Notes under the pieces: model-generated
Told to the model about the DNA's origin: nothing
The model's input: only the letters and a program-made list of their open reading frames with translations
The model's database searches: none
Part shown: piece after piece, positions 4,954-35,296 of the stretch
Layout: each line of letters opens with the position of its first letter
Numbering within the stretch: the first letter of the stretch is position 1
Translations under genes and position numbers: made by a program
IMG/VR virus record: IMGVR_UViG_3300024273_002159
Span: 1-36,261 of that record
Length of the DNA stretch: 36,261 nt
Direction: 5' to 3' (one strand)
DNA from: a virus

Positions 4954-5340
4954 ATGGCTAATGGTATAAATATTAAATTTCCTTTTCAGAACACAATAGA
5001 AGGTGGGGTGTTTGCAACAAACAAATCAACCTCAACTGCAATAAAAGATGATTTAATATCTCTACTAACAACAAGAAGGGGTCAGAGGCCTATGAGGAAT
5101 TCTCTTTATTCTCCAATATATGATTATATAATGGAGCCTTTAGATAATTTTGTTAAGTCTGAAATGAAAAAAGATATAGAAAAAAAAGTGTCTGAATTTA
5201 TACCTCAAATATCAATAACAGCTATAGAATTCGAAGAGCCAGAACAAGGTAATATACTAACGGTAGATATAACTTTTAGGGTAGATACTGCATTTAAAAC
5301 AGAATTTGTTAGCCTAAACATATCAAGAGAGGCTCAATAA
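4954..5340 (+). CDS. Baseplate wedge protein, T4 gp25-like (GPW/gp25 family)
   Basis: At 128 residues it is close to the family's usual length (T4 gp25 is 132). The hallmark of GPW/gp25 is present: SLLTTRRGQRPMRNSLYSP followed by a short helix (DYIMEPLDNFVKSEM), then FIPQISITAIEF and a final beta hairpin. In contractile tails gp25 organises the baseplate wedge next to the gp6 dimer and the sheath start. It is the first gene of a two-gene plus-strand unit with the gp6 homologue 17 bases downstream. The start has an A-rich leader and no Shine-Dalgarno sequence. Confidence 0.92.
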   Translation: MANGINIKFPFQNTIEGGVFATNKSTSTAIKDDLISLLTTRRGQRPMRNSLYSPIYDYIMEPLDNFVKSEMKKDIEKKVSEFIPQISITAIEFEEPEQGNILTVDITFRVDTAFKTEFVSLNISREAQ

Positions 5341-5357
5341 AAATAAAACAATAAATT

Positions 5358-7217
5358 ATGCCAACAATTAAAAAACAAGATTACCTTAAGAGAGACTTCT
5401 CTACAATAAGGTTGGATATTGAAAATGTTTTAAAAGTATATTTCCCAAAACAATGGCAAGACTTTAACGTTGCCAGTGCTGGTATGGCTTTGGTAGATTT
5501 GTTGGCCTATGTATCTGACTTACTGTCTTACTATACAGACAAAAGGTTCAATGAATTGTTTTTAGATGGAGTCTCAGAAACTTCATCTGCATATAGGATA
5601 GCAAAAACACTTGGTTATAAAGTTCCTGGAGTTAGAGGCAGTTCTACATTAGTAAATGTGACAATTAGAGTTCCCGCACTTTCAACTGGGCCAGATGAAC
5701 AGTATTTGCCAATATATAGACCTGGTGTCAGATTTGAGGGGGGAGGTCAGCTGTTTGAAACGGCTAATCAGATAGATTTTTCTAACGACTTTTCAGAGGT
5801 AGGAGTTACAAATAGAACTGTTAATCCTATTTTTGATTCTTCACAAAATATATTAGGATACAATATAACAAAAAGAGAATTTGTAGTCGCGGGAGTTACA
5901 ACAAATTTCAATAAAGTATTAAACGATAGAGATGCTGAAACCCCTTTTTTAGAAGTGTTTTTAAATGAGAAAAATGTCCTTGACATTTTGGATGTAATAG
6001 TAGTTCCTGGCACCAACATAACTGTTCCTCCAACGTACACTGACTATAAAGATTTTGAATTAAAATATCATGAAGTTGAACACTTATCTCAAAGCGAAGT
6101 GTTTACAGAGGATACTGGTGAGTCTACAGAATCTTTTGCTTTTGGAAAATGGGTTAATGTTAACAAGAGATTTACTAAAGAATTTATGTCTGACGGCTCT
6201 TGCAAATTAACCTTTGGAGGTGGGACTCCCAATGTCGATGCTTATGCAGAGTACTTAAACAGTTTAGCGCTATCAAACTCTGGAGAAGTTAGTTACGAAA
6301 GAGTTTTAAACAATACGTCTCTTGGAGAAAAGTTGCCTTCTGACTCTACTCTTTTCATAAAATATAGAACAGGGGGAGGTGAGCTGTCTAACGTTGGTAC
6401 TAACGTATTAAACAACATAAGCAACATAAACGCTTTAATACAAGGTTCTGAAGCTACAAAGAATGATGCAACACTGTCCTCAACTAGAGGCACAAATATA
6501 ATACCAGCACTAGGAGGGAGGGGGTTGCCTACAGTTCAAGAAATAAGGTATGCTGCTTCTGGAAACTTTGCTGCACAAGAAAGGTGTGTAACTCTATCTG
6601 ATTACATATCTAGAGCAAAGCAAATGCCTGGTAAGTTTGGTGCACCATTTAGGGTGGGAGGAAGAGTTAATGATAATAAAATTCAATTGTACATATTGTC
6701 AAAAGATGGAAAAGGAAAACTAACTGAACAAAGTTCTAATTTAGTAAAAAATAATATGGTTAGTTACTTATCTAAATTTAGAATGATAAATGATTTCATT
6801 GAAATAAACAATGCTAAAGTAGTAAACCTATCTTTTGAAGTAGACTTACTTGCTGACAAGAGTTTTAATAGTAATGAAATAAAAGTTAGTGCACTACAGC
6901 AGTTAAAAGATTACTTTAACGTAAACAAGTGGGATTTAGGCCAACATGTATACATTGCTCAAGTCACAGACATACTAAGAGAAGTTCCTGGGGTCATAAA
7001 CGTTTCTGGTCTTAGGGCTTACAATTTAGATGGAGGAATTTACTCTTCAACTTTAATTTCTCAAGCAAATGGTAATGTACAACTGTTATCTGGTGGGGTT
7101 TCGAGTGGCGCTAAAAGGACTGAAATAAACTTCATAGACAATGCCATATACGCAACTCCGCTTTCCATGTTTGAAGTCAGATACCCAGATACGGACATAA
7201 TGATAAGAACGGCTTAA
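5358..7217 (+). CDS. Baseplate wedge protein, T4 gp6-like (baseplate J superfamily)
   Basis: This 619-residue protein is close in size to T4 gp6 (660). Its N-terminus has the conserved wedge pattern: KRDFSTIRLDIENVLKVYFP, then DFNVASAGMALVDLLAYVSD and YYTDKRFNELFLD. The C-terminal part has the J-like segment (QVTDILREVPGVINVSGL). gp6 forms the dimeric ring that ties wedges together around the hub, and it follows gp25 directly, as in many contractile-tail modules. Its TAA overlaps the stop codon of the convergent spike gene (shared TTAA at 7214-7217), and no terminator hairpin is visible at the junction. Confidence 0.92.
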   Translation: MPTIKKQDYLKRDFSTIRLDIENVLKVYFPKQWQDFNVASAGMALVDLLAYVSDLLSYYTDKRFNELFLDGVSETSSAYRIAKTLGYKVPGVRGSSTLVNVTIRVPALSTGPDEQYLPIYRPGVRFEGGGQLFETANQIDFSNDFSEVGVTNRTVNPIFDSSQNILGYNITKREFVVAGVTTNFNKVLNDRDAETPFLEVFLNEKNVLDILDVIVVPGTNITVPPTYTDYKDFELKYHEVEHLSQSEVFTEDTGESTESFAFGKWVNVNKRFTKEFMSDGSCKLTFGGGTPNVDAYAEYLNSLALSNSGEVSYERVLNNTSLGEKLPSDSTLFIKYRTGGGELSNVGTNVLNNISNINALIQGSEATKNDATLSSTRGTNIIPALGGRGLPTVQEIRYAASGNFAAQERCVTLSDYISRAKQMPGKFGAPFRVGGRVNDNKIQLYILSKDGKGKLTEQSSNLVKNNMVSYLSKFRMINDFIEINNAKVVNLSFEVDLLADKSFNSNEIKVSALQQLKDYFNVNKWDLGQHVYIAQVTDILREVPGVINVSGLRAYNLDGGIYSSTLISQANGNVQLLSGGVSSGAKRTEINFIDNAIYATPLSMFEVRYPDTDIMIRTA

Positions 7218-17917: not shown

Positions 17918-19561
17918 TTATTTAGACGTGGTATAATTTACTGTTCCATTTTTGTTTTTAAAGAAATTCAGATGTTGTGCTTTTCCATTCTTATGTATTA
18001 TAACATGAGACTGCAGCCAAGAGCTTGGACCATTGTTGTAACCAACTCTTAAGTGGGTTGATGTACCTACAGCCAAAGCTCCATCCTTCCTTCCAGGAGA
18101 ATGGTAGTGTCCAACAACTATTTTTGTATTCAACTTTCTCATTTGTAAAAGTGAGCCCCTTGAACCATTTGAGCCAACATCACCATGCTGACCTAGCTCC
18201 CAATCTAAAACCTTATACGAATCTCTTCTTCCTAATGTTTTAAATTTTGGGAATCTACTATTAATGATAGACGGTATTATACCCTTAATATTACTTGGCG
18301 TATCAGCATACTGTCTTAATAATATTGCTGAATACTCCATGTATAGAGGTGAATTTTTTGGAGTAGGCTGACGCTTCCAATCTTCGTTCTTAACCCATCT
18401 ATCCAAAAAGTCATCATGATTACTTCTTACTATTATAACATTTTCATAAGGCTCAAAAGGAGATAAACCCTCCAACATCTCTGTCACCTCTTTATTTAAG
18501 TCGTTATTGCCATTTATCTCTTTGCCATACTGAGCAAATGGGTCTTTCATGTCGTGATGAGATATTGAATATCCGTCAAAAACATCATGTAATATTACAT
18601 GTTTAGGTTTTATCTTTTTTAACATCTTATGAGTCAAATTGACGACTTCAGGGTCATGATGCCCCCAGTGTAAATCACCTAATATACAAGCCTCTATTTC
18701 TTTTATGCTATTAATCTTAGTCTTTTTTGTTTCTTTATTATACTTAATCTCTTTGTATAAGTCACAAAAATCACCACTATCTTCTGCAGATACTTGTCTT
18801 ACATAAAACGTATCATTATCTTCTATTTCAACAATTGTAAAGCCTATGACGTGATGAAATTCGCCTTTTTTGCCCGCCTTAGAGTCTGTGTAGTTTTTTC
18901 TAGTACAAGAACCTGTAGTTAACATCATTTTAGACTTTTCACCTTCTATTACTGGTATCATTTCCATTTGCAATTTAGGCGAACCAAAAACACAGGAATT
19001 TATACCCGAAAGCGCATGCATACCAGTCATGGGGTTAACTGCTGTAGGCTGAATCTTTACATCAGACATGATTGACACATACTTATGTATATTATGTCTG
19101 TTTGCATCCAAAAAAGGCTGCACTCTTGTGTCCCACTTCTCTTCTTCCTCCTGGCCAGAAGACCACATGGATGTAGGATTTTTATAACGACCTGCTATAA
19201 CGTGTATATCTGCACTTATGTGTTTGGCGTATGAAGTTAGGTTTTCAAAAAACTCTTTATGTACTGGTGTGTTGTTTTGGGCCCACGTTATTATAAACTT
19301 CTTTTTCTTTTTGTCAAATTTTCTAGACTTTGCTTGCTCATATTCTGCAGAAATGCTTTCTTGCTTTTCATTTAAGTTTAGCTTTTTAGAAGCCCAAACT
19401 CGTACAGTTCTTTCAGACTTTCCAGTTAATTTCATTAACTTCTTCATTCTGTCGTCCCAAGATAAATCTTTATCTTTGTAAATTTCCGAAAAGCGCTTTA
19501 TATCACTTTTAGTCATGTCTTTAAATCTCATCAAAAATCTTATTAATTTATTTCCGAACAA
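17918..19561 (-). CDS. Metallophosphoesterase with N-terminal HTH-like region
   Basis: This 547-residue protein has three parts. Residues about 16-64 look like a helix-turn-helix (MTKSDIKRFSEIYK, then LTGKSERTVRVWASKKLNL). Residues about 88-285 form an unrecognised alpha/beta domain. The C-terminal calcineurin-like phosphoesterase has the metal motifs GDLHWGHHD (295-303), HDVFDGYS (325-332), SNHDDF (380-385, Ser for the usual Gly), GQHGD (457-461) and GHYHSPG (484-490). It may be a phage nuclease, or a phosphatase acting on nucleic acid. A shorter start at Met11 or Met16 is possible. Confidence 0.78.
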   Translation of the reverse strand: MFGNKLIRFLMRFKDMTKSDIKRFSEIYKDKDLSWDDRMKKLMKLTGKSERTVRVWASKKLNLNEKQESISAEYEQAKSRKFDKKKKKFIITWAQNNTPVHKEFFENLTSYAKHISADIHVIAGRYKNPTSMWSSGQEEEEKWDTRVQPFLDANRHNIHKYVSIMSDVKIQPTAVNPMTGMHALSGINSCVFGSPKLQMEMIPVIEGEKSKMMLTTGSCTRKNYTDSKAGKKGEFHHVIGFTIVEIEDNDTFYVRQVSAEDSGDFCDLYKEIKYNKETKKTKINSIKEIEACILGDLHWGHHDPEVVNLTHKMLKKIKPKHVILHDVFDGYSISHHDMKDPFAQYGKEINGNNDLNKEVTEMLEGLSPFEPYENVIIVRSNHDDFLDRWVKNEDWKRQPTPKNSPLYMEYSAILLRQYADTPSNIKGIIPSIINSRFPKFKTLGRRDSYKVLDWELGQHGDVGSNGSRGSLLQMRKLNTKIVVGHYHSPGRKDGALAVGTSTHLRVGYNNGPSSWLQSHVIIHKNGKAQHLNFFKNKNGTVNYTTSK

Positions 19562-19596: not shown

Positions 19597-20607
19597 TTAA
19601 CTTATTGACTTAAGTATAGAGCCTATACTATCTAAAACATCTCTTTTAGGCACCCAATTCATAACTTGCTTTGCTTTTGAAACGTCTCCATATATACTGT
19701 CTATGTCTCCATTTCTTTTGGGAAATATTTTGAAAGGTATTTCATATCCCAAGCTTTTAAAGCATTCAATTATTTCCATAACTGAATATCCACATCCAGA
19801 GCCTACGTTAATAGTTTGATAACTTTTTTCGCCTACAACACCTAAAGCTTTTACGTGAGCTTCTGCCAAATCTAAAACATCTACATAGTCCCTTATTGCA
19901 GTACCATCTTTAGTGTTATAATCATTTCCAAAAACTCTTAAATATTCATACTCCTTATTTAATACGCCGATTATATATGGGATTAAATTTTCTGGGGTGC
20001 CTTTTGGGTTATCTGACAACAATCCAGACTCGTGACATCCAATGGGATTAAAGTACCTTAAAGAAACTACGTTTATACCTTCTTTTTCTGAAGTATTTTT
20101 TAATAAATTTTCACATACTTGTTTAGTTTCGCCATATGGACTTTCTGCCGTCTTAACTGGGGCTTTTTCGCAAACAGGATATTTGTCTGGCTGTCCGTAA
20201 ACAGTGCACGAAGAAGAGAATATAATGTTTTTAACATCATATTTTTTCATCATTTCCAACAAAGAAATAGTTCCGCCTATATTGTTACTGTAATACTTTA
20301 AAGGATTTTTTACAGATTCATTTACGGACTTAAAAGCAGCAAAGTGCATAACAGAATTTATATCATATTTTTCCATTATATGAGATAAGTTACTAAAACC
20401 TTTAGGCGCCCTTATATCTCCATTGTAATAATGAATTTTTGAATTAGTTATTGTTTCTAATTCGTTTAATCTATAAAAATCACTATTAGAAAGATTGTCT
20501 ATTATAATGGGGTTATAGCCGTTTTCAAACAACTTAACAACAGTATTACTCCCTATATAGCCTAGCCCTCCAGTTACTAATATGTTTTTATTTTCTTGCT
20601 GTTTCAT
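19597..20607 (-). CDS. galE: UDP-glucose 4-epimerase
   Basis: This 336-residue protein is the usual length for GalE. It has the NAD-binding GGLGYIGSN, IIDNLSN, DIRAPKG, HFAAFKSVNESVKNP, the catalytic Ser region FSSSCTVYG, YGETK (YxxxK), RYFNPIG and the late RDYVDVLDLAEAH. It interconverts UDP-glucose and UDP-galactose, or their N-acetyl forms, in the cytoplasm. It is the last gene of the long operon and overlaps the fcl gene by 20 bases. Its product probably feeds Gal- or GalNAc-type transferases such as the GT6-like enzyme at 32632. GalE-like enzymes of other specificity cannot be ruled out by sequence alone. Confidence 0.9.
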   Translation of the reverse strand: MKQQENKNILVTGGLGYIGSNTVVKLFENGYNPIIIDNLSNSDFYRLNELETITNSKIHYYNGDIRAPKGFSNLSHIMEKYDINSVMHFAAFKSVNESVKNPLKYYSNNIGGTISLLEMMKKYDVKNIIFSSSCTVYGQPDKYPVCEKAPVKTAESPYGETKQVCENLLKNTSEKEGINVVSLRYFNPIGCHESGLLSDNPKGTPENLIPYIIGVLNKEYEYLRVFGNDYNTKDGTAIRDYVDVLDLAEAHVKALGVVGEKSYQTINVGSGCGYSVMEIIECFKSLGYEIPFKIFPKRNGDIDSIYGDVSKAKQVMNWVPKRDVLDSIGSILKSIS

Positions 20608-21496
20608 AATTTTCTATAAACCATTCCACGGTTTCTTTTAATCCATCGTATAAGGATGTGAATTTAAAATCGGGTAAATAATTTTTTATTTTAGAATTAT
20701 CTGAAGGCTTTCTAAACTGCCCATCTGGCTTATTGTTGTCCCATTTAACCTGGCCTTTGAAATCCATTAATTCTACAATAATTCCCACAACATCTCTTAT
20801 TGAAATCTCTTCTGATGTTGAAAGAATGATAGGCTCGTCTTCATTGTAGTTTTCAAGGACCCATTCAGTTAATTTTGCAACATCTTTGTTATAAATAAAC
20901 TCCCTAAGAGGTGTACCGCTTCCCCATATTACAAAAGGAGTATTAGTTTCTCTGGCAATATAACACTTGTGAATCAAAGAAGGTATTACGTGTCCGTTTT
21001 CTATATCAAAGTTGTCGTTTATTCCATATATGTTCGTAGGTATGACCGACTTGTAATTCAAACCATACTGCTCTCTATATGCTCTTATTTGAACTTCTGC
21101 CATACGTTTCGAATAGGCATAGGCATCATTGCTAAAATGAGGAGGGCCTAAGTGTATACTTTTTTCAACTAGAGGATATTCTACGCCGTCAGGAAAAACA
21201 CATGTAGATAAAAATACAACCAATTTTTTAACATCAGCTTGCCTGCAGGACTCTATCACATTTGTATTCATCATAATGTTTTTGTAGAAAAACTCTCCTT
21301 TATGATTCATGTTTCCCATTAGACCGCCAACTTTGGCTGCTGCATGAATAACACCATCCCAATCTTTATTAATTATATCGTAAGCTTGTTTTTGGTTAAT
21401 TAAATCATATTCTTTAGACCCTATTTTGTGATACTTTTCTCCACTGAACTGAGAACCAACAAGCCCATTACCACCAGTAACTAATATTCTATCCAT
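20588..21496 (-). CDS. fcl: GDP-L-fucose synthase
   Basis: This 302-residue protein is close to the usual ~310-320. It has GGNGLVGSQ, VIHAAAKVGGLMGN, the N-terminal pattern of epimerase/reductases, the catalytic STCVFPDGVEYP, AYAYSKRMAE (YxxxK) and PTNIYGINDNFD. It converts GDP-4-keto-6-deoxy-mannose, the gmd product, to GDP-L-fucose using NADPH. Its ATG overlaps the gmd stop codon by one base (TAATG), so the two steps are translationally coupled. It ends inside galE. Confidence 0.9.
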   Translation of the reverse strand: MDRILVTGGNGLVGSQFSGEKYHKIGSKEYDLINQKQAYDIINKDWDGVIHAAAKVGGLMGNMNHKGEFFYKNIMMNTNVIESCRQADVKKLVVFLSTCVFPDGVEYPLVEKSIHLGPPHFSNDAYAYSKRMAEVQIRAYREQYGLNYKSVIPTNIYGINDNFDIENGHVIPSLIHKCYIARETNTPFVIWGSGTPLREFIYNKDVAKLTEWVLENYNEDEPIILSTSEEISIRDVVGIIVELMDFKGQVKWDNNKPDGQFRKPSDNSKIKNYLPDFKFTSLYDGLKETVEWFIENYETARK

Positions 21497-22572
21497 TATT
21501 TATCTATTGTATAAAATTTATGACCTTTTTTTTCTAATTTAGCTCTATCATTTTCAGACATAAGTCTTACAAGTTCTTTAAAATTTATTTGAGGAGACCA
21601 GTCTAGCTTTTTCTTTGCCTTAGAGTAATCACCCAAAAGAATGTTTACTTCTGAAGGTCTGAAATATCTTTCATCCACCTGGACCAACAGTTTTCCTGTA
21701 GACTTATCATAACCCTTTTCTTTTACACCCTTACCCTTCCAGACTATTTCATAATCAAAATAAGAAACAGCTTCTTCTATAAAATCTCTAACTGAATATG
21801 CTGTATTTGTAGCTAAAACAAAATCTTCAGGCTCTTCCAGCTGAAGCATTCTCCACATACCATCAACATAATCTCTTGCGTGTCCCCAATCTCTTTTTGC
21901 ATCAAGATTGCCTATTGTTAACACTTCTCTTTTTCCACAAGCAACTTCGGCTAAGTTTGTAGTAATCTTTCTTGTCACAAAAGTTTCTCCTCTTCTTTCT
22001 GATTCGTGATTAAAAAGTATTCCATTACAAGCATATAAACCATGAGCTTCTCTATAATTCCTAACTATCCATAAAGCATAAAGTTTAGCAACCCCATATG
22101 GACTTCTTGGGTGGAACTTAGAATCTTCTGTATAACCATTTTCTGGCATGTTGTATCCCATTCCTCCGTAAAGTTCAGATGTTGATGCTTGGTAAAATTT
22201 TGTATTTGGACAATGAGCTCTTATAGCTTCTAAAATAGCTAAAGTACCTAATGCATCAGTTTGAGCTGTGTAGTAAGGTAGTTCAAAAGAAACTTTTACG
22301 TGAGACTGGGCAGCTAGATTATAAACTTCATCTGGCTGTATTTTTGAAATTATATTCGTTACACTTAAAGGGTCTGTTATGTCTCCGTAGTGAAAGTAAA
22401 AATCATTATTCTTATCTATTAGATGGTCAATTCTCTTTGTATTAAAAGAACTAGAGCGCCTTATAACTCCATGAACTTCATATCCTTTTTCTAAAAGTAA
22501 TTCAGTAAGGTAACTTCCATCTTGACCTGTTACGCCAAAGCAAATAGCTTTTTTCTTTTTTATTTCTTTCAT
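21496..22572 (-). CDS. gmd: GDP-mannose 4,6-dehydratase
   Basis: This ~358-residue protein has CFGVTGQDGSYLTELLLEKG, RRSSSFNTKRIDHL, DPLSVTNII, NLAAQSHVKVSFELP, YQASTSELYG, RSPYGVAKLYA (YxxxK) and LFNHESERRGETFVTRKIT, all typical of GMD. It dehydrates GDP-D-mannose to GDP-4-keto-6-deoxymannose. I chose the ATG at 22572 because it forms an ATGA junction with the stop of the LAGLIDADG-type ORF. A start three codons upstream (22581) is also in frame. GDP-mannose must come from the host, as no manB or manC is here. Confidence 0.93.
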   Translation of the reverse strand: MKEIKKKKAICFGVTGQDGSYLTELLLEKGYEVHGVIRRSSSFNTKRIDHLIDKNNDFYFHYGDITDPLSVTNIISKIQPDEVYNLAAQSHVKVSFELPYYTAQTDALGTLAILEAIRAHCPNTKFYQASTSELYGGMGYNMPENGYTEDSKFHPRSPYGVAKLYALWIVRNYREAHGLYACNGILFNHESERRGETFVTRKITTNLAEVACGKREVLTIGNLDAKRDWGHARDYVDGMWRMLQLEEPEDFVLATNTAYSVRDFIEEAVSYFDYEIVWKGKGVKEKGYDKSTGKLLVQVDERYFRPSEVNILLGDYSKAKKKLDWSPQINFKELVRLMSENDRAKLEKKGHKFYTIDK

Positions 22573-22859
22573 ATTTCCCATTTATATTTGTATTGTTTCA
22601 TTATTCCTGACTTAGGAGTAATCCATTCTAAAAATTTAATTGTATCTTGTTTGTTAAATGCTATCCTGTTATTACTTCTTAAAGAAGGATTAAACCCTTC
22701 TTTATTTAATTTTTTAATTAAATAATAATTATCATCTTTTGTAAAAGAATCTGTACATAAATAAACATTTCTATTACTTGTATATCCATCTCCAATAAAC
22801 CACCAATAACAAGATTTAGGGGTCACCAAAATATTTTTAGGAACTATTTTGTTATCCAT
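22569..22859 (-). CDS. LAGLIDADG-type homing endonuclease fragment or small family member
   Basis: This 96-residue protein contains YWWFIGDGYTSNRNVYLCTD (18-37), resembling the first LAGLIDADG helix and GDG turn. It then has SFTKDDNYYLIKKLNKEGF and RIAFNKQDTIKFLEWI, the usual strand and helix that follow. Full homing endonucleases have two such halves in one chain or act as homodimers, so this could be a dimeric type or a truncated copy. Its TGA overlaps the gmd start (ATGA). A YATTTAC element lies 26-36 bases upstream of its ATG. No intron or intein boundary was seen. Confidence 0.6.
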   Translation of the reverse strand: MDNKIVPKNILVTPKSCYWWFIGDGYTSNRNVYLCTDSFTKDDNYYLIKKLNKEGFNPSLRSNNRIAFNKQDTIKFLEWITPKSGIMKQYKYKWEI

Positions 22860-22884
22860 ATAACGAATATATGGTAAGAAAAAT

Positions 22885-22895: not shown

Positions 22896-22897
22896 AA

Positions 22898-24048: not shown

Positions 24049-24068
24049 ATTTTATTTTTTTATTTATA

Positions 24069-24926: not shown

Positions 24927-25579
24927 TTTCTTTTTTTAATTTTATAATCATTACTCAATAAGAAGTCTTTGAAGTTGTTTTCTATTATCTTTATTTCAAC
25001 CTCACTTAATATATTTAAATATTCTTTAACACCTATATCTTTGGATGTTATGTGATGGGTTTTTACATTATTTTCAACAATTTCTTTTATCTTATTTCCA
25101 TCTACATAGTCTATTTCTAATATATCACATATCTTTTTTGAATATTTATCAAAATCTTTTACATAATCCTCATATTTAAAACAATAATCAGAATATTTTT
25201 CCCAAGACTCATAAATTTCTAATTGATTTTTACATTCATCAAAAATATTATCTTTAGTATATTCTTGTTTATAATTTATTTTTTTTAAATACTTTTTAGT
25301 TGAAGACATCATTTCTCTAATATCTCTCATGCAAGTAAATGTATAATCTGAATCCTTAGCGTAATTATGAACATTATAATGAGCTTTTAAAATTAAAAAA
25401 TCTTCATTAACATTGTTCTTACTAACAGGGGCGCATTGATTTTTAGAGAACTCTTGAGATATAAATTTATATTTAATGTCAGAAATTTGAAAAATTGCTT
25501 TAATAATATTAGTCAAAACAGTAGACCCACATCTACCCATAGTCCCTACTGTTATTTGTTTAGTATTATTTGTTTTCAT
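24923..25579 (-). CDS. Putative sulfotransferase
   Basis: This 218-residue protein has the two PAPS-binding motifs of sulfotransferases. A P-loop-like 5'-PSB lies in ITVGTMGRCGSTVLTNIIKA (GRCGST 15-20), and a 3'-PB in FTCMRDIREMMSSTKKY (RDIREMMSST 85-94). The rest is Lys/Asn/Ile-rich and helical (YCFKYEDYVKDF, IENNFKDFLLSNDYK), as in many small glycan sulfotransferases. It would move sulfate from PAPS, supplied by the host, to a sugar hydroxyl. It is coupled to the GT-A-like gene downstream (ATGA) and overlaps the fusion enzyme gene by 14 bases. Family details need a profile search. Confidence 0.75.
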   Translation of the reverse strand: MKTNNTKQITVGTMGRCGSTVLTNIIKAIFQISDIKYKFISQEFSKNQCAPVSKNNVNEDFLILKAHYNVHNYAKDSDYTFTCMRDIREMMSSTKKYLKKINYKQEYTKDNIFDECKNQLEIYESWEKYSDYCFKYEDYVKDFDKYSKKICDILEIDYVDGNKIKEIVENNVKTHHITSKDIGVKEYLNILSEVEIKIIENNFKDFLLSNDYKIKKRK

Positions 25580-26924
25580 AATTTTTTAAGTAATAATTTA
25601 AATCTTCTGGTGTTCCTAGTCCCCACATTTTTTTAATATTGAAATTTGTTATTTTTTTACCATCAGAAATAGCTTCATTAAACACTGGACATACGTAAAA
25701 TTCATTATTAACCCTTACATCGTTTTCAATCATTTGTTCAGAATATTTAACAAAATCACTACCAGACTTCCAGAAATAATACCCTACAGTTGCTATATTT
25801 GATATTGGGTTTTTCTCAGCAACTTCAGTTACAAATCCTGATTTATCAATTTTTGCAAATGACCACTTTGGATGTGTGGCAGTAAATGAAACAATTCCTC
25901 CATCTACATTTGTCTCTTGCATTTTATACATGAATTCATTTGAATCCCATTCTACAAATTGGTCTGAATTTGCAAAAAACAAAGGTGAATCATTATTAAT
26001 GTACTCTTTAGCTAGCAAAGCGGTGCAGGCTGCACCTTCAGTAACTCCTTCAGTTTCTATTATTTGACAATTAGGGGTTATTAAATTTAATAAAGCGTCT
26101 AAATTATACTTTTCTCTATGCTTTTTCTGTACTACATATATAAAGTTTGCATCTAAATTTAAGTTTTCAACAACAAGTTGAATCATTGGCTTTCCATTAA
26201 CTTCAATTAATGGCTTTGGAAATGTATACCCAGCTTGCTCGAATCTACTTCCAGCACCAGCCATTGGTATTAATACGTTTAATTTTTCATTTTTCCATTT
26301 GTGTTTCTTTTCCATATCAATATTATTTAAGTAATTATTTATATTTTCAAGAGTTATGTCACTAGGCGACTCTACTCTCATTACATTTGAAGTTGCTCTA
26401 TTTGCAGCTATTAATCCAAATGGTGAATCTTCAACTATCATAACCTCATTTGGCAAGCACTTCATTTCTGATATTGCTTTCCAGTACATTTCTGGGTGGG
26501 GCTTGCTATTTTTTACATCTTCATTAGATATTATATAATCAAAATACTCTATAATTTCTAACTTAGACAAAACAGTTAGTACTGTTTTTCTTATACTATT
26601 GCTGCAACAAGCTATTTTATACCCCTTTTCACTCAAGCTTTTAATACAATGTAGTATTTTTTTAGATTTTTTAATATCTTTTAATCTTTTTAATGTTAAG
26701 CTTTGTTTTTTTTTCCAAATCTCCTTATGTAAATCAGAAGATAATCCCCTTTCCTTTGTTAACATTGATAGTTTTTGAACTGTCTTTAAGCCATCATACT
26801 TACTTAAGTGTTCATTCCATCCAATACTATACTTTTTTCCTAAAGCTTCATTTAATGTTTCAAAATGTATTTTTTTAGCCTCAATTAGAACGCCGTCTAA
26901 ATCAAATATTATTAATTTTATCAT
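25566..26924 (-). CDS. HAD phosphatase fused to sugar-1-phosphate nucleotidyltransferase
   Basis: This 452-residue protein has two domains. Residues 1-200 are a beta-phosphoglucomutase-type HAD: FDLDGVL (7-13), CSNS (107-110), SKPHPEMY (140-147) and VEDSPFGLIAA (164-174), with all catalytic residues present. Residues about 215-452 are an NTP_transferase (LNVLIPMAGAGSRFEQAGYT, then FPKPLIEVNGKPMIQLV, TEGAACTALLAKEYI and ANSDQFVEW). Such a pair could remove a phosphate from, or isomerise, a sugar phosphate and then activate it to an NDP-sugar. The exact sugar is unknown. It overlaps the next gene by 23 bases at its start and the sulfotransferase gene by 14 at its end. Confidence 0.85.
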   Translation of the reverse strand: MIKLIIFDLDGVLIEAKKIHFETLNEALGKKYSIGWNEHLSKYDGLKTVQKLSMLTKERGLSSDLHKEIWKKKQSLTLKRLKDIKKSKKILHCIKSLSEKGYKIACCSNSIRKTVLTVLSKLEIIEYFDYIISNEDVKNSKPHPEMYWKAISEMKCLPNEVMIVEDSPFGLIAANRATSNVMRVESPSDITLENINNYLNNIDMEKKHKWKNEKLNVLIPMAGAGSRFEQAGYTFPKPLIEVNGKPMIQLVVENLNLDANFIYVVQKKHREKYNLDALLNLITPNCQIIETEGVTEGAACTALLAKEYINNDSPLFFANSDQFVEWDSNEFMYKMQETNVDGGIVSFTATHPKWSFAKIDKSGFVTEVAEKNPISNIATVGYYFWKSGSDFVKYSEQMIENDVRVNNEFYVCPVFNEAISDGKKITNFNIKKMWGLGTPEDLNYYLKNYENK

Positions 26925-28592: not shown

Positions 28593-28596
28593 GTTT

Positions 28597-29265
28597 TTAT
28601 TTTAAATATTCGATATTATCTGGTAATATTTTTTTATCATATATTTTTAATAATTCAAAATAGTTATTACGTTCTTTTTGTTCATTATCCATATATGCTA
28701 TTTTTTGATTGAAATCAGTTAATGGTAAGCATTTTATATTATTCAGTTTTTTATATTTATAACCAAAACTTTTAGCTCTATAACTCATATCTCCATCGCA
28801 AAAATAATATTTATAAGAGTTGTTATATAGCCCTATTTCTCTAAAAATTTTTTTGTTATAAATGCCAAAATTTAACACAAACTCTTTTTCATTATCGTAA
28901 ATAACATATCTACCTCCTTTTTTTTCTAGAAATGAAAATAAATATAAATCATGCTCTTTTGTTAGTTCGTTCAACACTTCCTCCCAGTTATTTTCTAATA
29001 AAACATCATCATTCCATTGACATATATAATCGTATTTTGAATTTTTAATTCCCAAATTCATAAAATCCCAATAATAACTCCTATTATTGACCTCTATTAG
29101 CTTTATTCTTTTATTATTTAATTTTTTAATATATTCTATTGTTCCATCTAAAGAGCCACCATCTACTAATACTAATTCTAACTTATCATTAGAATCAACA
29201 GTATTTTGTATTATTTTTTTTATGTAATCTAATCTATTTAATGTGCCAGAAACTATACTTATCAT
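28597..29265 (-). CDS. Glycosyltransferase family 2
   Basis: This 222-residue protein has the standard GT2 layout: ISIVSGTLNRLDYIKKIIQN, LVLVDGGSLDGTIEYI (DGGSLDGT 35-42), YDYICQWNDDVLLENNW (NDD 85-87) and KIFREIGLYNNSYKYYF, followed by CDGDMSYRA. The donor sugar cannot be predicted from this. It lies 8 bases downstream of the FkbM methyltransferase gene. One 60-base line inside it was hand-counted at 15% GC, well below the flanking genes. Confidence 0.88.
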   Translation of the reverse strand: MISIVSGTLNRLDYIKKIIQNTVDSNDKLELVLVDGGSLDGTIEYIKKLNNKRIKLIEVNNRSYYWDFMNLGIKNSKYDYICQWNDDVLLENNWEEVLNELTKEHDLYLFSFLEKKGGRYVIYDNEKEFVLNFGIYNKKIFREIGLYNNSYKYYFCDGDMSYRAKSFGYKYKKLNNIKCLPLTDFNQKIAYMDNEQKERNNYFELLKIYDKKILPDNIEYLK

Positions 29266-29272
29266 AATTTAT

Positions 29273-29899
29273 TTATTTTTTTATATATAAAGCATCTCCC
29301 CATTCATATTGAGTCATTTTTGTTTCAACTCTTTCAAAGTTGAATTTAGACAAATATTCATCTAGCTCCTCTATTTGAGCGCATCCTTTATAAATTTCTG
29401 CAGTATTAACTTCCGTATAAATATAGTCTATATTTTCTAATGTTTTTTCCATTCCCTTAAGAGCTAACAATTCAGCTCCCTGAATATCTAAGTTAAGAAA
29501 ATTATAGTCATTAGGACTAAAATCTTCTTCTTCAAAAAATGTATCAATTTTTTTAGTTTTAACAATTTTTTTATCAACTACAGTTATGTGAGGGTGGTGT
29601 ATTGTATGTTTTCCCATCTCTAAAATTGACGAAGACTCTCCATTGCTAGCCACATGAAAATCAACCTCTTGCCCATCCACATCAGATGCGGCAAAACAAT
29701 AAGGTTTATGTAGTGGATATTTATTAATAATCACACTTAACTCTTTAAATGTTTCAATGTCAGCCTCTACCCACAAAACGCTGTGAACACCAGATTCTGT
29801 GTAGGAGAGAGCTTCTTCAGCATGGTGAGCACCAACATGTAATATTCCATTTGGTGTTATCCCGTACTTTCTTACTATATCTTTAAATTTAATTAGCAT
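29273..29899 (-). CDS. FkbM-family SAM methyltransferase
   Basis: This 208-residue protein has GILHVGAHHAEEALSY (SAM-binding motif), VLWVEADIETFKEL, FAASDVDGQEVDFHVASNGE, the FkbM hallmark KTKKIDTFFEEED and then NFLNLDIQGAELLALKGMEK. FkbM enzymes usually methylate a hydroxyl on a sugar or polyketide. Here the context is a glycan. It starts 1 base after the upstream GT2 gene ends. A second FkbM protein (31935-32621) is only distantly similar. Confidence 0.9.
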   Translation of the reverse strand: MLIKFKDIVRKYGITPNGILHVGAHHAEEALSYTESGVHSVLWVEADIETFKELSVIINKYPLHKPYCFAASDVDGQEVDFHVASNGESSSILEMGKHTIHHPHITVVDKKIVKTKKIDTFFEEEDFSPNDYNFLNLDIQGAELLALKGMEKTLENIDYIYTEVNTAEIYKGCAQIEELDEYLSKFNFERVETKMTQYEWGDALYIKK

Positions 29900-29900
29900 A

Positions 29901-30569
29901 TTAATTGTATTTTTCTATCACAGATTTTATATCATGTGTTTTTGTGTTAAAATTACTTTTACTATGTATTCTATGTAATACAAGTTGTTTTTTTGTATTT
30001 GTAAATTTATATCCTTTACTCATTAGTTTAAGCCAAAAGTCAAAATCTTCAATGCCAGACAGGCTCTCATCCCATCCATTAACTTCTTTTGTTATAGACT
30101 TTCTAAAAATGGCAGAAGTATTAGGCACTTGATTATCTCCTTTTCTTGAGCGCTCTACAATGTCTTTGTGTTCTGTAGAGATATTAGGGTGTCCTGTTAT
30201 TTTATCTAAGTCATTACAATAAAATATTCTAGAACCTATAACATCATAATTACCATTTTCTGCAAGTTCCATTTGTATTTCTAATTTTTTTGGAAGCCAT
30301 ATGTCATCATCATCTTGCATTGCTAACCAGTCTCCTTTTGCTTTTTTTAATAACTTATTTAAAGTCTTCGACTTCCCAGAGTTCATTCCGTAATCAAATG
30401 TTCTAATTCTCTTATCATTAAATGAGGCAACTATCTCTTTGCTTTTATCAACTGTTCCATTGAAACCGATTAATAACTCAAAATCTTCATAAGTTTGATT
30501 CAAAACAGATTCTATAGAACGTCTTAAATATTTTTCTCCATTATATACTGCTAGTAATATTGATACCAT
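29901..30569 (-). CDS. Glycosyltransferase family 2
   Basis: This 222-residue protein is a classic GT2: VSILLAVYNGEKYLRRSIES, VLNQTYEDFELLIGFNGTVD, then KGDWLAMQDDDDIWLPKKLE (QDDDD 85-89) and NTSAIFRKSITKEVNGWDES, followed by IEDFDFWLKLM, the ED-type catalytic base segment. It probably adds a hexose or amino-sugar to the glycan. One base separates it from the downstream FkbM gene and from the upstream methyltransferase gene. Confidence 0.92.
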   Translation of the reverse strand: MVSILLAVYNGEKYLRRSIESVLNQTYEDFELLIGFNGTVDKSKEIVASFNDKRIRTFDYGMNSGKSKTLNKLLKKAKGDWLAMQDDDDIWLPKKLEIQMELAENGNYDVIGSRIFYCNDLDKITGHPNISTEHKDIVERSRKGDNQVPNTSAIFRKSITKEVNGWDESLSGIEDFDFWLKLMSKGYKFTNTKKQLVLHRIHSKSNFNTKTHDIKSVIEKYN

Positions 30570-30570
30570 A

Positions 30571-31104
30571 TTAAATTTTAGTAGCTTCTATATTTAAGCT
30601 CATTAACTCTCCGTCCTCTTTATCCATGTGGGGTATATAACATTGACTATAGTCATCTACGTGACCATGTTCAACCTCTTTCCAGTCCCATTTTTTAATA
30701 TCTTTAAAGCCTAAATTTTCTAAATCTTCTTTTAGTAATTCATAATCAAAGCCTATATAATGATAATTTTCTGCATAAGTTTGTCCTCCATACAAAAATC
30801 CTGTCAAACTTCTCAAAGACATTCCATTAACATACATTTCCATAACCTTTCCTATGTCTGGCACTGATATTCTTAATGTTCCTTCACTTTTTAATATTTC
30901 AGACCATTTTCTTAAAACCTTTAAATATTCATGTCTTCCGAAATGCTCAAGAACATGGCATGCATATATAAGTTCTGCAGATTCATTTTTAAATTCAGAT
31001 AAAACAGAAATATCATCAACTACATCAGGATTAACATCTTCTCTTATGTCAATATTTATGAAATCTTTAAATTTCTTTTCTCCGCAACCTAAGTGTAACT
31101 TCAT
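30571..31104 (-). CDS. SAM-dependent methyltransferase, class I
   Basis: This 177-residue protein opens MKLHLGCGEKKFKDFINIDI, a compact SAM-binding motif, followed by LIYACHVLEHFGRHEYLKVL (Methyltransf_11-type HxLEH) and ILKSEGTLRISVPDIGKVME. It is short but complete for this family, which often sits in LPS and capsule clusters. It overlaps the upstream GT10-like gene by an ATGA junction (31101-31104). Confidence 0.85.
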   Translation of the reverse strand: MKLHLGCGEKKFKDFINIDIREDVNPDVVDDISVLSEFKNESAELIYACHVLEHFGRHEYLKVLRKWSEILKSEGTLRISVPDIGKVMEMYVNGMSLRSLTGFLYGGQTYAENYHYIGFDYELLKEDLENLGFKDIKKWDWKEVEHGHVDDYSQCYIPHMDKEDGELMSLNIEATKI

Positions 31105-31892
31105 ATCAGTTCTTTTATTTTATTATAAATTCTTTCAGAATGATTAACCCAATTTAAAGCTTTTTTATAATTTTCTTCAACATATTCTATTCTATCATAG
31201 TAGTCTTTTTCAGTTAAATTATTACAAACTTTTATTATATCTTCCACACTATTAACTAATATCATTCCTTTAGAATTAAAATACTCATCTATATTTGTGC
31301 ATCCCCAATAAATTGGAATAGTTTTACATAATAAAGTGTCTATTAGTTTTTCTGTGAAAAAATATCTCTTCGGTACATTTTCAATACATATATGAAACAT
31401 GCTTTCAAACATTGGTAATTTAGAATCTTTAAGTATTTCATTTCCATCAAAAAGCCTTGGTCCTCCATGCTTACTTAAAAAGAATTTTTTTGGAATATTA
31501 ATTTTTTCTTGAGATAACCAAAGTTTGTGTCTAGATTTATGAAATTTTGTTATTGACTTTCCTCCACAAACATTAGATACGCTAAATTCTTTTTTTAATT
31601 TTTTATAATCATCCAACTCTACCCACTTTGTTCCAAATTCAAACAAAACAGCATTATCTAATTTATTTAGCAAATCTTCATCATAAGTTAAAATGAAATT
31701 AAAAGCTTTACTAAAATATTCAATACGTTCATTTAAATTAATTATTTCTTCAGGCTCTAATGCTATAAATATTTTTTTTTGAGCTCTACTTACATCTATT
31801 CTATCAAATGTGTCAACCCACAATTCAACACTTTTACTTACGTCATATTGAGCTAAATTAAAGCCGTAATTTGAGTTACATCTTATTTTCAT
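31101..31892 (-). CDS. GT10-like fucosyltransferase
   Basis: This 263-residue protein has the GT10 (alpha-1,3/4-fucosyltransferase) signature at about 165-214: FHICIENVPKRYFFTEKLID, then TLLCKTIPIYWGCTNIDEYF and SKGMILVN. This is the known donor-binding region (FENS...EKL...A..hPVYWG). The N-terminal part has ALEPEEI and FILTYDEDLL. Bacterial GT10 enzymes transfer L-fucose from GDP-fucose, which gmd and fcl in the same operon would provide. It may therefore fucosylate the phage glycan. It starts after a 42-base gap, with an ATGA junction at its end. Confidence 0.85.
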   Translation of the reverse strand: MKIRCNSNYGFNLAQYDVSKSVELWVDTFDRIDVSRAQKKIFIALEPEEIINLNERIEYFSKAFNFILTYDEDLLNKLDNAVLFEFGTKWVELDDYKKLKKEFSVSNVCGGKSITKFHKSRHKLWLSQEKINIPKKFFLSKHGGPRLFDGNEILKDSKLPMFESMFHICIENVPKRYFFTEKLIDTLLCKTIPIYWGCTNIDEYFNSKGMILVNSVEDIIKVCNNLTEKDYYDRIEYVEENYKKALNWVNHSERIYNKIKELI

Positions 31893-31934
31893 AATCTTAT
31901 TTCTGAGTGATTTTTATCTAATGCTAGCAACTTT

Positions 31935-32621
31935 TTATAAATTAATGATTTCTTTATTTACAAAAATGCTATTATTTTCATCTTTATAAACTTTTTTATA
32001 ATTATTTTCTTTAAAATAATCTAACATCTCTTTTAAGTTCTTCTTTAGAGAGTCATATTCATTATCTTCATGTAGTTCTATTATTACCATTTTTGGCTTC
32101 CACTTTGAAATTGTAAAGCCATTTAGAACTTCGTACTCAGCCCCCTCAACGTCAACCACTAGTACATCAAAGTTTTCTTCATAATTTTCATTTGTAAGAA
32201 AATTATCTAATGTATCTATTTTACTTACAATATTTCTTTCTTCATCTAAAACTCCCTTAAACCAATCTATTTTTTCATATTCTTTTAAACTGTCTAAATC
32301 TGTAGTGGCCAAAGAATATCCAGTATATAAAGTTATTTCACCAGTATAATTTCCTACACAAGAATTAATAACTTTTACTTTTGGGAATTTATCATAGTTT
32401 TTAGTACATTCCTCAAAATAACTAGGTTGTGGCTCAAAAAATAAACCCTTCCAACCAGCTACCGCTAGCCCAAATGTATTACTCCAAGAGTACCCATCAA
32501 AAGCTCCCACTTCTACAAATGAACCATCTTTTTTTAGCCCTAAATATTCTTCATATATTTTCGGTAAATTTTCAATCTGACACTTATTGCTTGTTGGGTT
32601 TTTTAAATTGTATTTTTTCAT
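31935..32621 (-). CDS. FkbM-family SAM methyltransferase
   Basis: This 228-residue protein has GSFVEVGAFDGYSWSNTFGL (SAM motif, FVEVGAFDGY at 35-44), GLFFEPQPSYFEECTKNY, INSCVGNYTGEITLY, SKIDTLDNFL and VLVVDVEGAEYEVLNGF, the full FkbM signature. It would methylate a sugar hydroxyl in the glycan. It differs enough from the FkbM protein at 29273-29899 that the two may act at different positions. It lies 10 bases after the GT6-like gene. Confidence 0.9.
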   Translation of the reverse strand: MKKYNLKNPTSNKCQIENLPKIYEEYLGLKKDGSFVEVGAFDGYSWSNTFGLAVAGWKGLFFEPQPSYFEECTKNYDKFPKVKVINSCVGNYTGEITLYTGYSLATTDLDSLKEYEKIDWFKGVLDEERNIVSKIDTLDNFLTNENYEENFDVLVVDVEGAEYEVLNGFTISKWKPKMVIIELHEDNEYDSLKKNLKEMLDYFKENNYKKVYKDENNSIFVNKEIINL

Positions 32622-32631: not shown

Positions 32632-33318
32632 TTAATATCTTACTTCACTATGTTTTTTTGCTAGTGCTAATAATTTCTTTTCAAAAGGCACGCTCCAAGT
32701 TTCTGGGTAGCAATAGCTTGGGCTTAACGTTTTTGGAGGATTGTCAATAAAGTATCTATTCGTTTGGCTCTCGTCATGCCATACCGCGATAATATCTTTT
32801 TCTAAATCCTTATCTACTCTTTCTTTTATAATTTTTGACATATTCAAAAATGCTTCTGAAGTTCCTCCATTAAAACCTCCTGCATAATATACACTCCCCT
32901 CTTCTGTAGATACGTATGCTGTTGATTCTGGTCTAGTTTCATAAGTCCCTCTTCTTCCGCCGTGAAAACCAGGATGTTCTGTTCCAACTAATCCATTGGA
33001 GTCCTCTTCTGGCAATATTTCTTCTCCAACATCTCCAACAAACTTCATATCAGAATCACAATAAAATAAGTAATCCATTTCAGATAAAACATCTTTATTT
33101 TTATCGAAAATATGATACCTTTTTAAAGTGGCTCCTGGCCACCCTAAATGCTCTTGTTCAACCCTTTTAACCATGTCATTTTCTGGTATTTTTCCATCTG
33201 TAAAAACAAACATGTTTACCTCATGACCTTTCATAAAGTGTTTGTGAACAGATTTAAATAGTGGAGGTATAAACTGAGTATACTTTCCTGTCGCTATAAC
33301 TAATAGTCCTATTTTCAT
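32632..33318 (-). CDS. GT6-like (ABO/alpha-gal type) glycosyltransferase
   Basis: This 228-residue protein carries the full GT6 pattern. MKIGLLVIATGKYTQFIPPL opens the fold, and MDYLFYCDSDMKFVG has DSD (88-90) at the metal site. HPGF lies at 115-118, and YETRPESTAYV and YYAGGFNGG (144-152) follow. The catalytic region is WHDESQTNRYF (E183 aligns with the nucleophile/base of mammalian GTB/alpha3GalT), then TLSPSYCYPE (197-206). GT6 enzymes retain configuration and transfer Gal or GalNAc from UDP-sugars to an acceptor, often one carrying fucose. It overlaps the next gene by an ATGA junction and is richer in GC than its downstream neighbours. Confidence 0.93.
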   Translation of the reverse strand: MKIGLLVIATGKYTQFIPPLFKSVHKHFMKGHEVNMFVFTDGKIPENDMVKRVEQEHLGWPGATLKRYHIFDKNKDVLSEMDYLFYCDSDMKFVGDVGEEILPEEDSNGLVGTEHPGFHGGRRGTYETRPESTAYVSTEEGSVYYAGGFNGGTSEAFLNMSKIIKERVDKDLEKDIIAVWHDESQTNRYFIDNPPKTLSPSYCYPETWSVPFEKKLLALAKKHSEVRY

Positions 33319-33611
33319 ATTTTTTCTATTAAAAGAATATTTGTATTTGTGAAAGGAAATTTTTTAATAATTTCATCCGTTCTATGTTTTAGGTAGTTTA
33401 ATTTATTTATAAAGACTTGTTTACCGTCCAATTCTTTTATAGATGTAGGATTTAAACATTCAATTTGTGTTTCCCTATCTCTAACTGGTATAAAAACAGA
33501 ATGATACTCTCCGTCATATGTACACATATCCTTAACCTTATACACATAAGAAGCAACCTCTGATAATTCTATATTTCCTACGTTAATATAATGTACTATT
33601 ACTGGCTTCAT
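33315..33611 (-). CDS. Hypothetical 98-residue protein of the glycan operon
   Basis: This small protein begins MKPVIVHYINVGNIELSEVA and has an alpha/beta look (VFIPVRDRETQIECLNP, ELDGKQVFINKLNYL). No signal peptide or motif is seen. It is embedded between two glycosyltransferase genes (ATGA junction with the GT6-like gene and a 1-base gap to the next), which supports a real gene with a role tied to the cluster, but its function is not recognised. Confidence 0.65.
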   Translation of the reverse strand: MKPVIVHYINVGNIELSEVASYVYKVKDMCTYDGEYHSVFIPVRDRETQIECLNPTSIKELDGKQVFINKLNYLKHRTDEIIKKFPFTNTNILLIEKI

Positions 33612-33612: not shown

Positions 33613-34437
33613 TTAGTCTTCTGTAAATTCTAACTCTGTTAAAGGCAATTCGAGCTCTTGGTGACATCCTACTATATTAGAAAAGTCAATCTTATTATAA
33701 TCAATTTCTTGACCTGATAAAAAAGCTATATTTAATTCTTCTACACTAATTCCATACTCTTCTCCTTTTCTGTTTTGATAAACTTCTTGAACAACATTTG
33801 AAGGAGAGTTTACTAGTACACTTTCTTTGTATGCCCACATGTGTTTTCTTGGAAAGTTATCAAAAATCTGAAGCCCAGCTTCATATGTGTTTGGATTTTC
33901 AAAAGATACTTTTTTTGTAAGTTTTTTTATCTCTTTAGTTCTAAATATATGACCATCTACAGATAGTGGGTATCCAAAATCCAAATAATGCACCTGCCAA
34001 TTCCAGCAAATAAACTTATCGTCTTCATGATGAGGCTTTATAACATTGTCAGCATTCATTGTATAACACTTTACAGTATTCTTTCCTAGTCTAGTTGAAA
34101 AACAAAAAGCATCTTTATCCTCTTTTAGTTTAGATGTTAAATCCTCCTCGTTTATTTTTCGATAAACAATGTCGTCATCTGTAAAGAAGCAAGTATATTC
34201 ACTTTCTGTATTGTCAATTGCAGATAATACATCTTCCTTAAAGTTGGATGATTCTTTCATCCACTTTACTTCTGGGTATTTGTCAATCAGCTTTTCATAG
34301 CCCTTTTCAAATGAAATTTCTGATGATGCGTATATAACTTTTAATTGAAATATATCTTTCGCGTTTTTGCCTATAGATTTTAGTAGTAAATCTAATTGTG
34401 CTGCTCTATCTTTTGAGAATACTATACTATTAATCAT
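33613..34437 (-). CDS. Putative GT-A glycosyltransferase
   Basis: This 274-residue protein starts INSIVFSKDRAAQLDLLLKS and has QLKVIYASSE, YTCFFTDDDIVYRKINEEDL (TDDD 86-89, the DxD site) and then YPLSVDGHIFRTKEIKKL and SPSNVVQEVYQNRKG. It fits a GT-A transferase with a short N-terminal GT2-like strand. The specific family is not recognised. Its ATG overlaps the end of the first operon gene by 8 bases. Confidence 0.72.
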   Translation of the reverse strand: MINSIVFSKDRAAQLDLLLKSIGKNAKDIFQLKVIYASSEISFEKGYEKLIDKYPEVKWMKESSNFKEDVLSAIDNTESEYTCFFTDDDIVYRKINEEDLTSKLKEDKDAFCFSTRLGKNTVKCYTMNADNVIKPHHEDDKFICWNWQVHYLDFGYPLSVDGHIFRTKEIKKLTKKVSFENPNTYEAGLQIFDNFPRKHMWAYKESVLVNSPSNVVQEVYQNRKGEEYGISVEELNIAFLSGQEIDYNKIDFSNIVGCHQELELPLTELEFTED

Positions 34438-35296
34438 TAATTTCTATTTTTTCAAATTTATAACTATCAATCTTGTCAAAGCTTTTCTTTTTATTTATTT
34501 GCAAGTGTATCGCGGTTTGTAAGTTTTGATTTACTTTATCGTCAGATATTGGATTTTCTCTATTATAAACATATAAAGGTATATGATTGTAGAACACATG
34601 TTCTTTACCTGCCATTTCAAGCATTGGCAAAAACATAGCTACATCATATGTCATTTTATACCAATTACCAGCAGTATCTTTCATGCAGGAATAATCTTCA
34701 TCTTGCTCTGCTATTTTAGCGTAAAGACCAGCTCTAAAAGTTCTAATGTGAGAAACTTTAAACTGAGTCTTTCTTAAATTGTCAAACTCTTCTTCAGTAT
34801 ACTCTCTAGCACAACACTGCATTCCGTTGGTCCACTTAGAGCTTCCGTACATCATCCAACATTCTTTATTATCGTTATAAAAGTCATTGATATATGATAA
34901 AACATTTTTATTGCAAAGCCAATCATCTCCGTCAACAATAATAACTATATCTTCTGGGTCTGTGGCAAATCTCATTATACCATTATGTAAATTAGGAAGT
35001 GCGGTAACTCTTTCTCCAGATTTCCATGCCAATATGTTGCTACACTTCGTTTTATCTAACAAGTGATGCTTAGACTCTACTATTGGCTCATCATTTTCGT
35101 CCATAATTAAATCACCATTATCATCTGCCTTATATTTAACCGCTGGTATTTTTAAAAAAGAATCATCCGAAGAACAGTCGTCTATAAATAGAATCTCATA
35201 GTTATCATAATCTTGCGTCAACAAAGAGTTTACACACCTGTCTAAGAATTTTCCAGGATTGTAAAACGGTACAATTATTTTTATTTTATTTTTCAT
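34430..35296 (-). CDS. Glycosyltransferase family 2 with insertion
   Basis: This 288-residue protein is GT2-like: IKIIVPFYNPGKFLDRCVNS, LLTQDYDNYEILFIDDCSSD and IVIIVDGDDWLCNKNVL (DGDD at 122-125). Between residues about 46 and 80 there is an acidic insertion (ADDNGDLIMDENDEPIV), which is unusual for this family. It is the first gene of the long operon and is preceded by a 132-base AT-rich divergent gap where no clear minus-strand promoter motif was found. Confidence 0.88.
   Translation of the reverse strand: MKNKIKIIVPFYNPGKFLDRCVNSLLTQDYDNYEILFIDDCSSDDSFLKIPAVKYKADDNGDLIMDENDEPIVESKHHLLDKTKCSNILAWKSGERVTALPNLHNGIMRFATDPEDIVIIVDGDDWLCNKNVLSYINDFYNDNKECWMMYGSSKWTNGMQCCAREYTEEEFDNLRKTQFKVSHIRTFRAGLYAKIAEQDEDYSCMKDTAGNWYKMTYDVAMFLPMLEMAGKEHVFYNHIPLYVYNRENPISDDKVNQNLQTAIHLQINKKKSFDKIDSYKFEKIEIND

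Follow-up and report, generated by a model that had tools for sequence, protein, structure and literature searches.

Two cyanophages and 36 bacterial species have been described as carrying glycosyltransferase genes of family GT6, nearly all of the bacterial ones with an NXN motif (PMC3961637). In this family NXN accompanies metal independence: BoGT6a of Bacteroides ovatus (PDB 4AYJ, 4CJ8) is metal-independent, while the DXD enzyme of Parachlamydia is metal-dependent (PMC3961637). Among phages, Prochlorococcus phage P-SSM2 has a gene (PSSM2_268, AAX44645.1; PHROG 3317) that is annotated in GenBank as 'glycosyltransferase family 6' and whose motif we read from the sequence as DVD. A literature search returned no biochemistry on any phage GT6.

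Here we analysed a GT6 gene on IMG/VR virus record IMGVR_UViG_3300024273_002159, the whole 36,261-nucleotide stretch of which is referred to as the window. As in P-SSM2, the DxD GT6 of the window lies in a phage glycan cluster that also encodes gmd and nucleotide-sugar epimerases; the two GT6 enzymes share 46% identity, and P-SSM2 has a GT11 where the window has a GT10-like gene. BoGT6a is the best structural match and shares the A-G-G donor site and the catalytic residues, but reads NAN instead of DSD. The window enzyme belongs to the same DxD lineage as the GT6 enzymes of Parachlamydia and other Chlamydiae, Dependentiae and Verrucomicrobia, which differ in being bacterial and, for the 26 rows in our tree, in forming a branch of their own. 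Human GTA and GTB and bovine α3GT have the same catalytic domain, DxD site and WHDES loop, but are only ~35% identical in a structural alignment and possess an additional N-terminal part. Finally, WbwK (GT11) and WbnI (GT6) of E. coli O86 follow the fucosyltransferase-plus-GT6 logic of most phage GT6 loci (PMC4202792), although that pathway builds a bacterial O-antigen of B-antigen type and the window has a GT10-like enzyme with no GT11 in view. As a single gene the window GT6 is ordinary for its family, and cyanophage GT6 genes have been published previously; its position in a cassette and the co-occurrence of GT6 with GT11 are new here, and the points worth following are the exchange of the cassette and the pairing with fucosyltransferases.

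Identity and active site of the window enzyme

The gene under study and its site residues, the latter placed by alignment, are as follows.

32632..33318 (-): GT6 glycosyltransferase, 228 aa, ATG start, catalytic domain only (PF03414, PDB, PHROG, AlphaFold/Foldseek)
33049..33057 (-): D88-S89-D90, predicted metal site (DxD), aligned with GTA and BoGT6a
32875..32883 (-): A146-G147-G148, donor-selecting site, same letters as in GalNAc-specific BoGT6a, aligned with GTA L266/G268
32770..32772 (-): E183, equivalent of GTA E303 and BoGT6a E192, in 101/101 viral copies
32638..32658 (-): C-terminal K221...R227, corresponding to the diphosphate-binding K346/R352 of GTA

The initial annotation had assigned the gene to GT6 on the basis of HPGF, YYAGGF, WHDES and LSPSYCYPE, all of which are found in the 33318->32632 translation, and membership of another family is excluded by Pfam and PDB matches far above chance. 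PF03414, the Pfam GT6 profile, matches residues 2-223 at 4.2e-42 (144.5 bits against a curated cutoff of 25 bits) and does so from profile position 76 onwards; the PDB search returned BoGT6a (4AYJ, 2.2e-61) and human GTA (1e-35), and PHROG 3317 ('glycosyltransferase') matched at 6.5e-64. The AlphaFold model, built on an alignment of 35 relatives with rows from the window, IMG/VR and genomes, has a mean pLDDT of 95.8 and a pTM of 0.92. When this predicted model was used in Foldseek, BoGT6a came first (TM 0.96 by query length, 1.5 Å), followed by GTA structures (TM ~0.9); with GT6 enzymes as its best PDB matches, the model has a GT-A fold of GT6 type. The phage context claimed for the gene is borne out by the T4-type baseplate wedge genes on the same 36-kb virus record. 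The window gene is a genuine relative of the human ABO blood-group enzyme in a large environmental phage.

D88 and D90 correspond to D211 and D213 of GTA and to N95 and N97 of BoGT6a, with S89, V and A as the respective middle residues. The alignment is exact, and the earlier claim that DSD occupies the metal site was correct. Further along, H115 corresponds to GTA H233, T125 to T245 and A146/G148 to L266/G268, and the catalytic glutamate is kept together with the WHDE loop, W180-H181-D182-E183 aligning with GTA W300-E303. Like E183, K221 is kept in 101/101 viral GT6 copies. G117, A146 and G148 are donor-site residues of the GTA/BoGT6a type, the roles of which in GT6 have been described (PMC4692239, PMC4202792) and from which UDP-GalNAc specificity is predicted. 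Metal dependence of the enzyme is likewise a prediction, made from DxD. The C-terminal Arg (equivalent of α3GT R365) was considered as an additional marker of metal dependence and rejected, because Arg is aligned there in most NxN bacterial enzymes too.

The metal-site motif across the GT6 tree

The initial annotation had singled out DSD against a background in which most bacterial GT6 enzymes have NxN. Our viral set consists of 101 GT6 copies (the window and 100 loci, 4 or 5 contigs being counted twice), of which 54 read DVD, 39 DAD, 4 DID, 3 DSD and 1 NAN. Far from being an oddity, DxD is thus the norm in phage GT6 (100/101 viral loci), and it also occurs in the relatives from Chlamydiae, Dependentiae and Verrucomicrobia. 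The serine in the middle of the window motif is a minor variant, since the closest viral relative (locus L022, 80% identity) has DAD, and phage GT6 with DxD was already known in kind from the cyanophages of PMC3961637 and the P-SSM2 gene. The sole copy with NAN (L013, MT838506.1) comes from a 7.7-kb unverified contig of a human faecal 'Bacteriophage sp.' and groups with Gemmiger; a prophage or bacterial DNA may be its source.

Of bacterial loci we took the 80 closest to the query, a sample biased by that very choice so that its proportions are no estimates, and counted 35 with DxD, 42 with NxN, 2 with NGT and 1 that is truncated. The DxD bacteria are mostly Chlamydiota, Dependentiae/Babeliales and Verrucomicrobiota, plus the cyanobacterium Moorena, and the NxN bacteria are mostly Bacteroidota, Gemmiger and Helicobacter. 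NGT, which is neither DxD nor NxN, stands at the metal position in two loci (L172 and L177; Clostridiales, Akkermansia). The statement that most bacterial GT6 have NxN therefore applies to the Bacteroides-type clade, in agreement with PMC3961637, but not to the Chlamydiae/Dependentiae relatives. Since DxD, and with it predicted metal dependence, is the phage GT6 norm, a rule that equates 'bacterial' with NxN fails for phages as well as for these relatives.

A maximum-likelihood tree of 107 GT6 rows (unrooted, motif columns excluded, the Parachlamydia enzyme itself not among the rows) placed the window enzyme among DxD members from phages, Chlamydiae/Dependentiae and vertebrates. It falls in a 63-row DxD clade (SH-aLRT 99) together with 26 other viral rows, DxD bacteria and both vertebrate enzymes, and within that clade it pairs with L022 (SH-aLRT 99), the next relative being L024 (88). 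Grouping near the window, the bacterial DxD cluster of Chlamydiae/Dependentiae/Verrucomicrobia type (26 rows) forms its own branch with an SH-aLRT of 99. In this free tree, eight Synechococcus-phage GT6 sit on a 1.54-long branch among NxN rows, hinting at two independent origins of DxD. Such a second origin is not needed: when all 71 DxD rows were constrained to group together, the log-likelihood was 44 units higher (p-AU 0.9), and because this grouping is not rejected and has the better likelihood, the data can be accommodated by one DxD/NxN switch. The Synechococcus-phage enzymes (L012, L014-L020) carry DAD and an unusual donor-site motif, YxQGCxWGG, and their specificity probably differs from that of the window enzyme. 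A copy from a Bacteroidetes MAG (L120) sits among viral rows, which means that transfer or contig misbinning occurs.

The glycan cassette and its exchange between sister phages

The genes of the window that bear on the glycan pathway and on the nature of the contig are listed below; in the following, genes are named by their first coordinate.

4954..7217 (+): two baseplate wedge genes, marking the contig as a tailed phage (PHROGs 2.6e-13, 1.2e-21)
17918..19561 (-): conserved gene, other cassette flank, kept in L318 (81%), L319 (57%) and L320 (72%)
19597..20607 (-): UDP-glucose/GalNAc 4-epimerase-like gene of GalE type (Pfam 7e-52; exact enzyme predicted)
20588..21496 (-): GDP-fucose-synthase-like epimerase/reductase (Pfam Epimerase 9.8e-45; adjoins gmd as in P-SSM2; exact enzyme predicted)
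21496..22581 (-): GDP-mannose 4,6-dehydratase, gmd (Pfam 1.8e-137)
25566..26924 (-): HAD hydrolase + nucleotidyltransferase fusion (Pfam HAD_2 1.8e-33, NTP_transferase 1.5e-13)
29273..29899 (-): second FkbM-type methyltransferase, kept in related GT6 loci (Pfam 9e-18; synteny)
29901..30569 (-): GT2 glycosyltransferase, kept in related GT6 loci (Pfam 1e-29; synteny)
31101..31892 (-): GT10-like (α1,3-fucosyltransferase-type) enzyme (PDB 2nzw 8e-8; Pfam GT10 7.8e-5, just under cutoff)
31935..32621 (-): FkbM-type methyltransferase, adjoins GT6 downstream (Pfam 1.6e-22; synteny)
33315..33611 (-): small conserved protein, borders the variable cassette as the last gene retained (50% identity in sister L318)
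33613..34437 (-): conserved flank gene, no Pfam match (kept in L022, L024, L318)
34430..35296 (-): GT2 glycosyltransferase, conserved flank (Pfam 6e-13; homologue fused to GT6 in L024)

The baseplate proteins are divergent: they have no Kyanoviridae baseplate match, and the matches of a window baseplate gene, in Microcystis and Flavobacterium phages and in a 484-kb uncultured phage, reach 27-30% only, so that the label 'typical cyanophage' is not supported. Downstream of GT6, the genes in 19597-32621 are mostly glycan genes, among them methyltransferases other than the FkbM type, with GT6 standing first in the cassette. GDP-fucose would be supplied by gmd and the GDP-fucose-synthase-like gene, which lie side by side, the function of the second being predicted. 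Just upstream of gmd, a 96-aa ORF (22569-22859, -) matches LAGLIDADG_2 homing endonucleases in their C-terminal half alone (4e-9); it has no match in the part of sister phage L320 that was compared and looks like a remnant. A further, independent contig (L321, IMGVR_UViG_3300024273_001991) encodes proteins 100% identical to those of the left part of the window (genes 394 to 12237); its 32.7-kb record gave no GT6 match, the part compared ending before the glycan cassette.

The sister phage represented by L022/L023 (G004) shares the gene order 35429-34430-33613-33315-GT6-GT10-30571 with the window, and its gmd, fcl-like and galE-like genes lie farther along; FkbM 31935 is absent at the corresponding place. 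In a second sister phage (L318, G005), the flank genes 35429/34430/33613/33315 and 17918 are retained with 50-83% identity. They enclose ~5.3 kb there instead of the ~13.7 kb of the window, and no GT6 occurs anywhere in the 232-kb G005 record. Between the same flanks, L318:3972-9272 is an alternative cassette with GT25, a sulfotransferase, APS kinase, another GT10 and an FkbM-like gene, which suggests that a sulfated glycan is made instead of the GT6 product. phoH lies beside the cassette flank in L318; large cyanophage glycan clusters have been described near hli03 and/or phoH (PMC3037559). In L024, a 663-aa frame (4687-6678) joins an N-terminal GT2, a methyltransferase-looking unmatched middle and a C-terminal GT6, and the fusion of this homologue of window 34430 to GT6 suggests that both act on the same glycan. 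The place of GT6 as the first gene of a replaceable glycan cassette is new from the present analysis, and this architecture, with a sister phage that has the same flanks around another gene set without GT6, indicates mobility of the gene.

Fucosyltransferase partnership and the proposed pathway

Profiles seeded on phage genes were run over the flanks of GT6, which span ~6 kb and in a few loci as much as 12 kb. Of 95 viral loci, 70 have GT11 (α1,2-fucosyltransferase) there, in every case on the strand of GT6, and 73 have a fucosyltransferase of some kind. GT11 calls were confirmed by Pfam in 6/6 checked, and after dereplication at 72% identity GT11 was present in 24 of 34 viral GT6 groups. By comparison, a control set of 83 phage sugar loci that lack GT6 but are of comparable length, almost all of them retrieved via the unrelated gene 25566, contains GT11 in 5 cases (Fisher p 7e-22 raw and 1.6e-12 with dereplicated GT6 loci; some dependence among loci remains, and the controls were not dereplicated). 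GT11 also lies nearby in 51/80 bacterial GT6 loci. No description of the phage GT6-GT11 pairing was found in a literature search that had most subscription journals outside its scope. The listed genes of the window, whose contig is a fragment, contain no GT11 match, and a classic H-antigen acceptor is therefore not predicted from it. Instead, the lineage formed by the window, L022 and L024 carries a GT10-like gene next to GT6 or close by, an assignment that rests on matches to α1,3-fucosyltransferase structures (~1e-7) and on Pfam scores above the cutoff in L024 and just below it in the window.

Taken together, we think it probable that the window gene encodes an active, metal-dependent GT6 of the DxD lineage that performs one step of a phage glycan pathway, carried in a replaceable cassette for a variable surface glycan. 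We infer activity, metal dependence, donor, linkage, acceptor and biological role as follows. The enzyme would be a retaining glycosyltransferase with GT-A fold, in which Mn2+/Mg2+ held by D88 and D90 bridges the diphosphate of UDP, the WHDE loop and E183 are placed at the sugar under transfer, and the C-terminus closes over UDP through K221 and R227. Judging by the A-G-G site, the donor would be UDP-GalNAc or, less likely, UDP-Gal, and the sugar would be transferred α1,3, with retention, onto a galactose-type acceptor that is probably fucosylated. This step would stand beside GDP-fucose synthesis, a GalE-type epimerase, the GT10-like fucosyltransferase, GT2 enzymes and methyltransferases, and the product would be a variable glycan on the surface of the virion or the infected host; the cassette probably decorates the phage or its host.

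The reading that competes most directly with a GalNAc donor is that the enzyme uses UDP-Gal (B-/α-Gal-type) on a non-fucosylated galactoside, with fucose elsewhere in the glycan or uninvolved. The GalE-type epimerase of the window, the lack of GT11 there and the 22/95 viral GT6 loci without a fucosyltransferase within ~6 kb would fit such a reaction. We nevertheless consider it unlikely, as A-G-G is the donor site of GalNAc-specific BoGT6a and G117 and G148 are as in GTA, whereas α3GT has H-A-A and GTB M-G-A, and GT11 is strongly enriched at GT6 loci.

The origin and the functionality of the gene can also be questioned. The initial annotation had rightly noted that GT6 is richer in GC than its downstream neighbours (34.6%, the next two genes having 27.7% and 24.6%) and had taken this as a hint of a different origin. 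A recent import from a bacterium would accord with this difference, with the absence of GT6 from sister phage L318 and with the Bacteroidetes MAG copy among viral rows, but we regard it as very improbable: the nearest relatives, L022/L023 and L024, are viral and have gene neighbours in common with the window, and GT6 ranks only 6th of 37 genes in GC, 1.1 SD above the gene mean. Because its value equals that of the phage's own baseplate genes (31-35%), GC is no argument for a separate origin. That the glycan genes are non-functional ballast has been raised as a possibility for large cyanophage LPS clusters under the name of stuffer DNA (PMC3037559), and cassette content is indeed highly variable, one sister phage doing without GT6. 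The site residues, however, are intact, the partner genes are non-random and, weighing heavily, dN/dS is 0.15 for the window and L022 (dS 1.1) and has a median of 0.05 (range 0.02-0.13) over 59 phage GT6 pairs, some members being common to several pairs. Phage GT6 is under purifying selection, and we give ballast hardly any credence.

For the functional glycan pathway that we favour, the wider picture is more tentative. It is possible, though we would not presume it, that many large aquatic phages use a fucose-plus-GT6 route to build an A-antigen-like GalNAcα1-3(Fucα)Gal- coat on virions or infected hosts, and that the DxD lineage of phage and Chlamydiae/Dependentiae type, not the gut Bacteroides NxN enzymes, is nearest to the vertebrate ABO-family enzymes. 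The swapping of the cassette at a fixed site between sister phages is what would be expected for variable surface glycans. Both the purifying selection on phage GT6 and its pairing with fucosyltransferases bear on the published question of whether such clusters are functional or stuffer DNA (PMC3037559), and the fact that GT6 and fucosyltransferases travel together in phages is an argument for regarding phage 'LPS clusters' as functional pathways of glycan synthesis.
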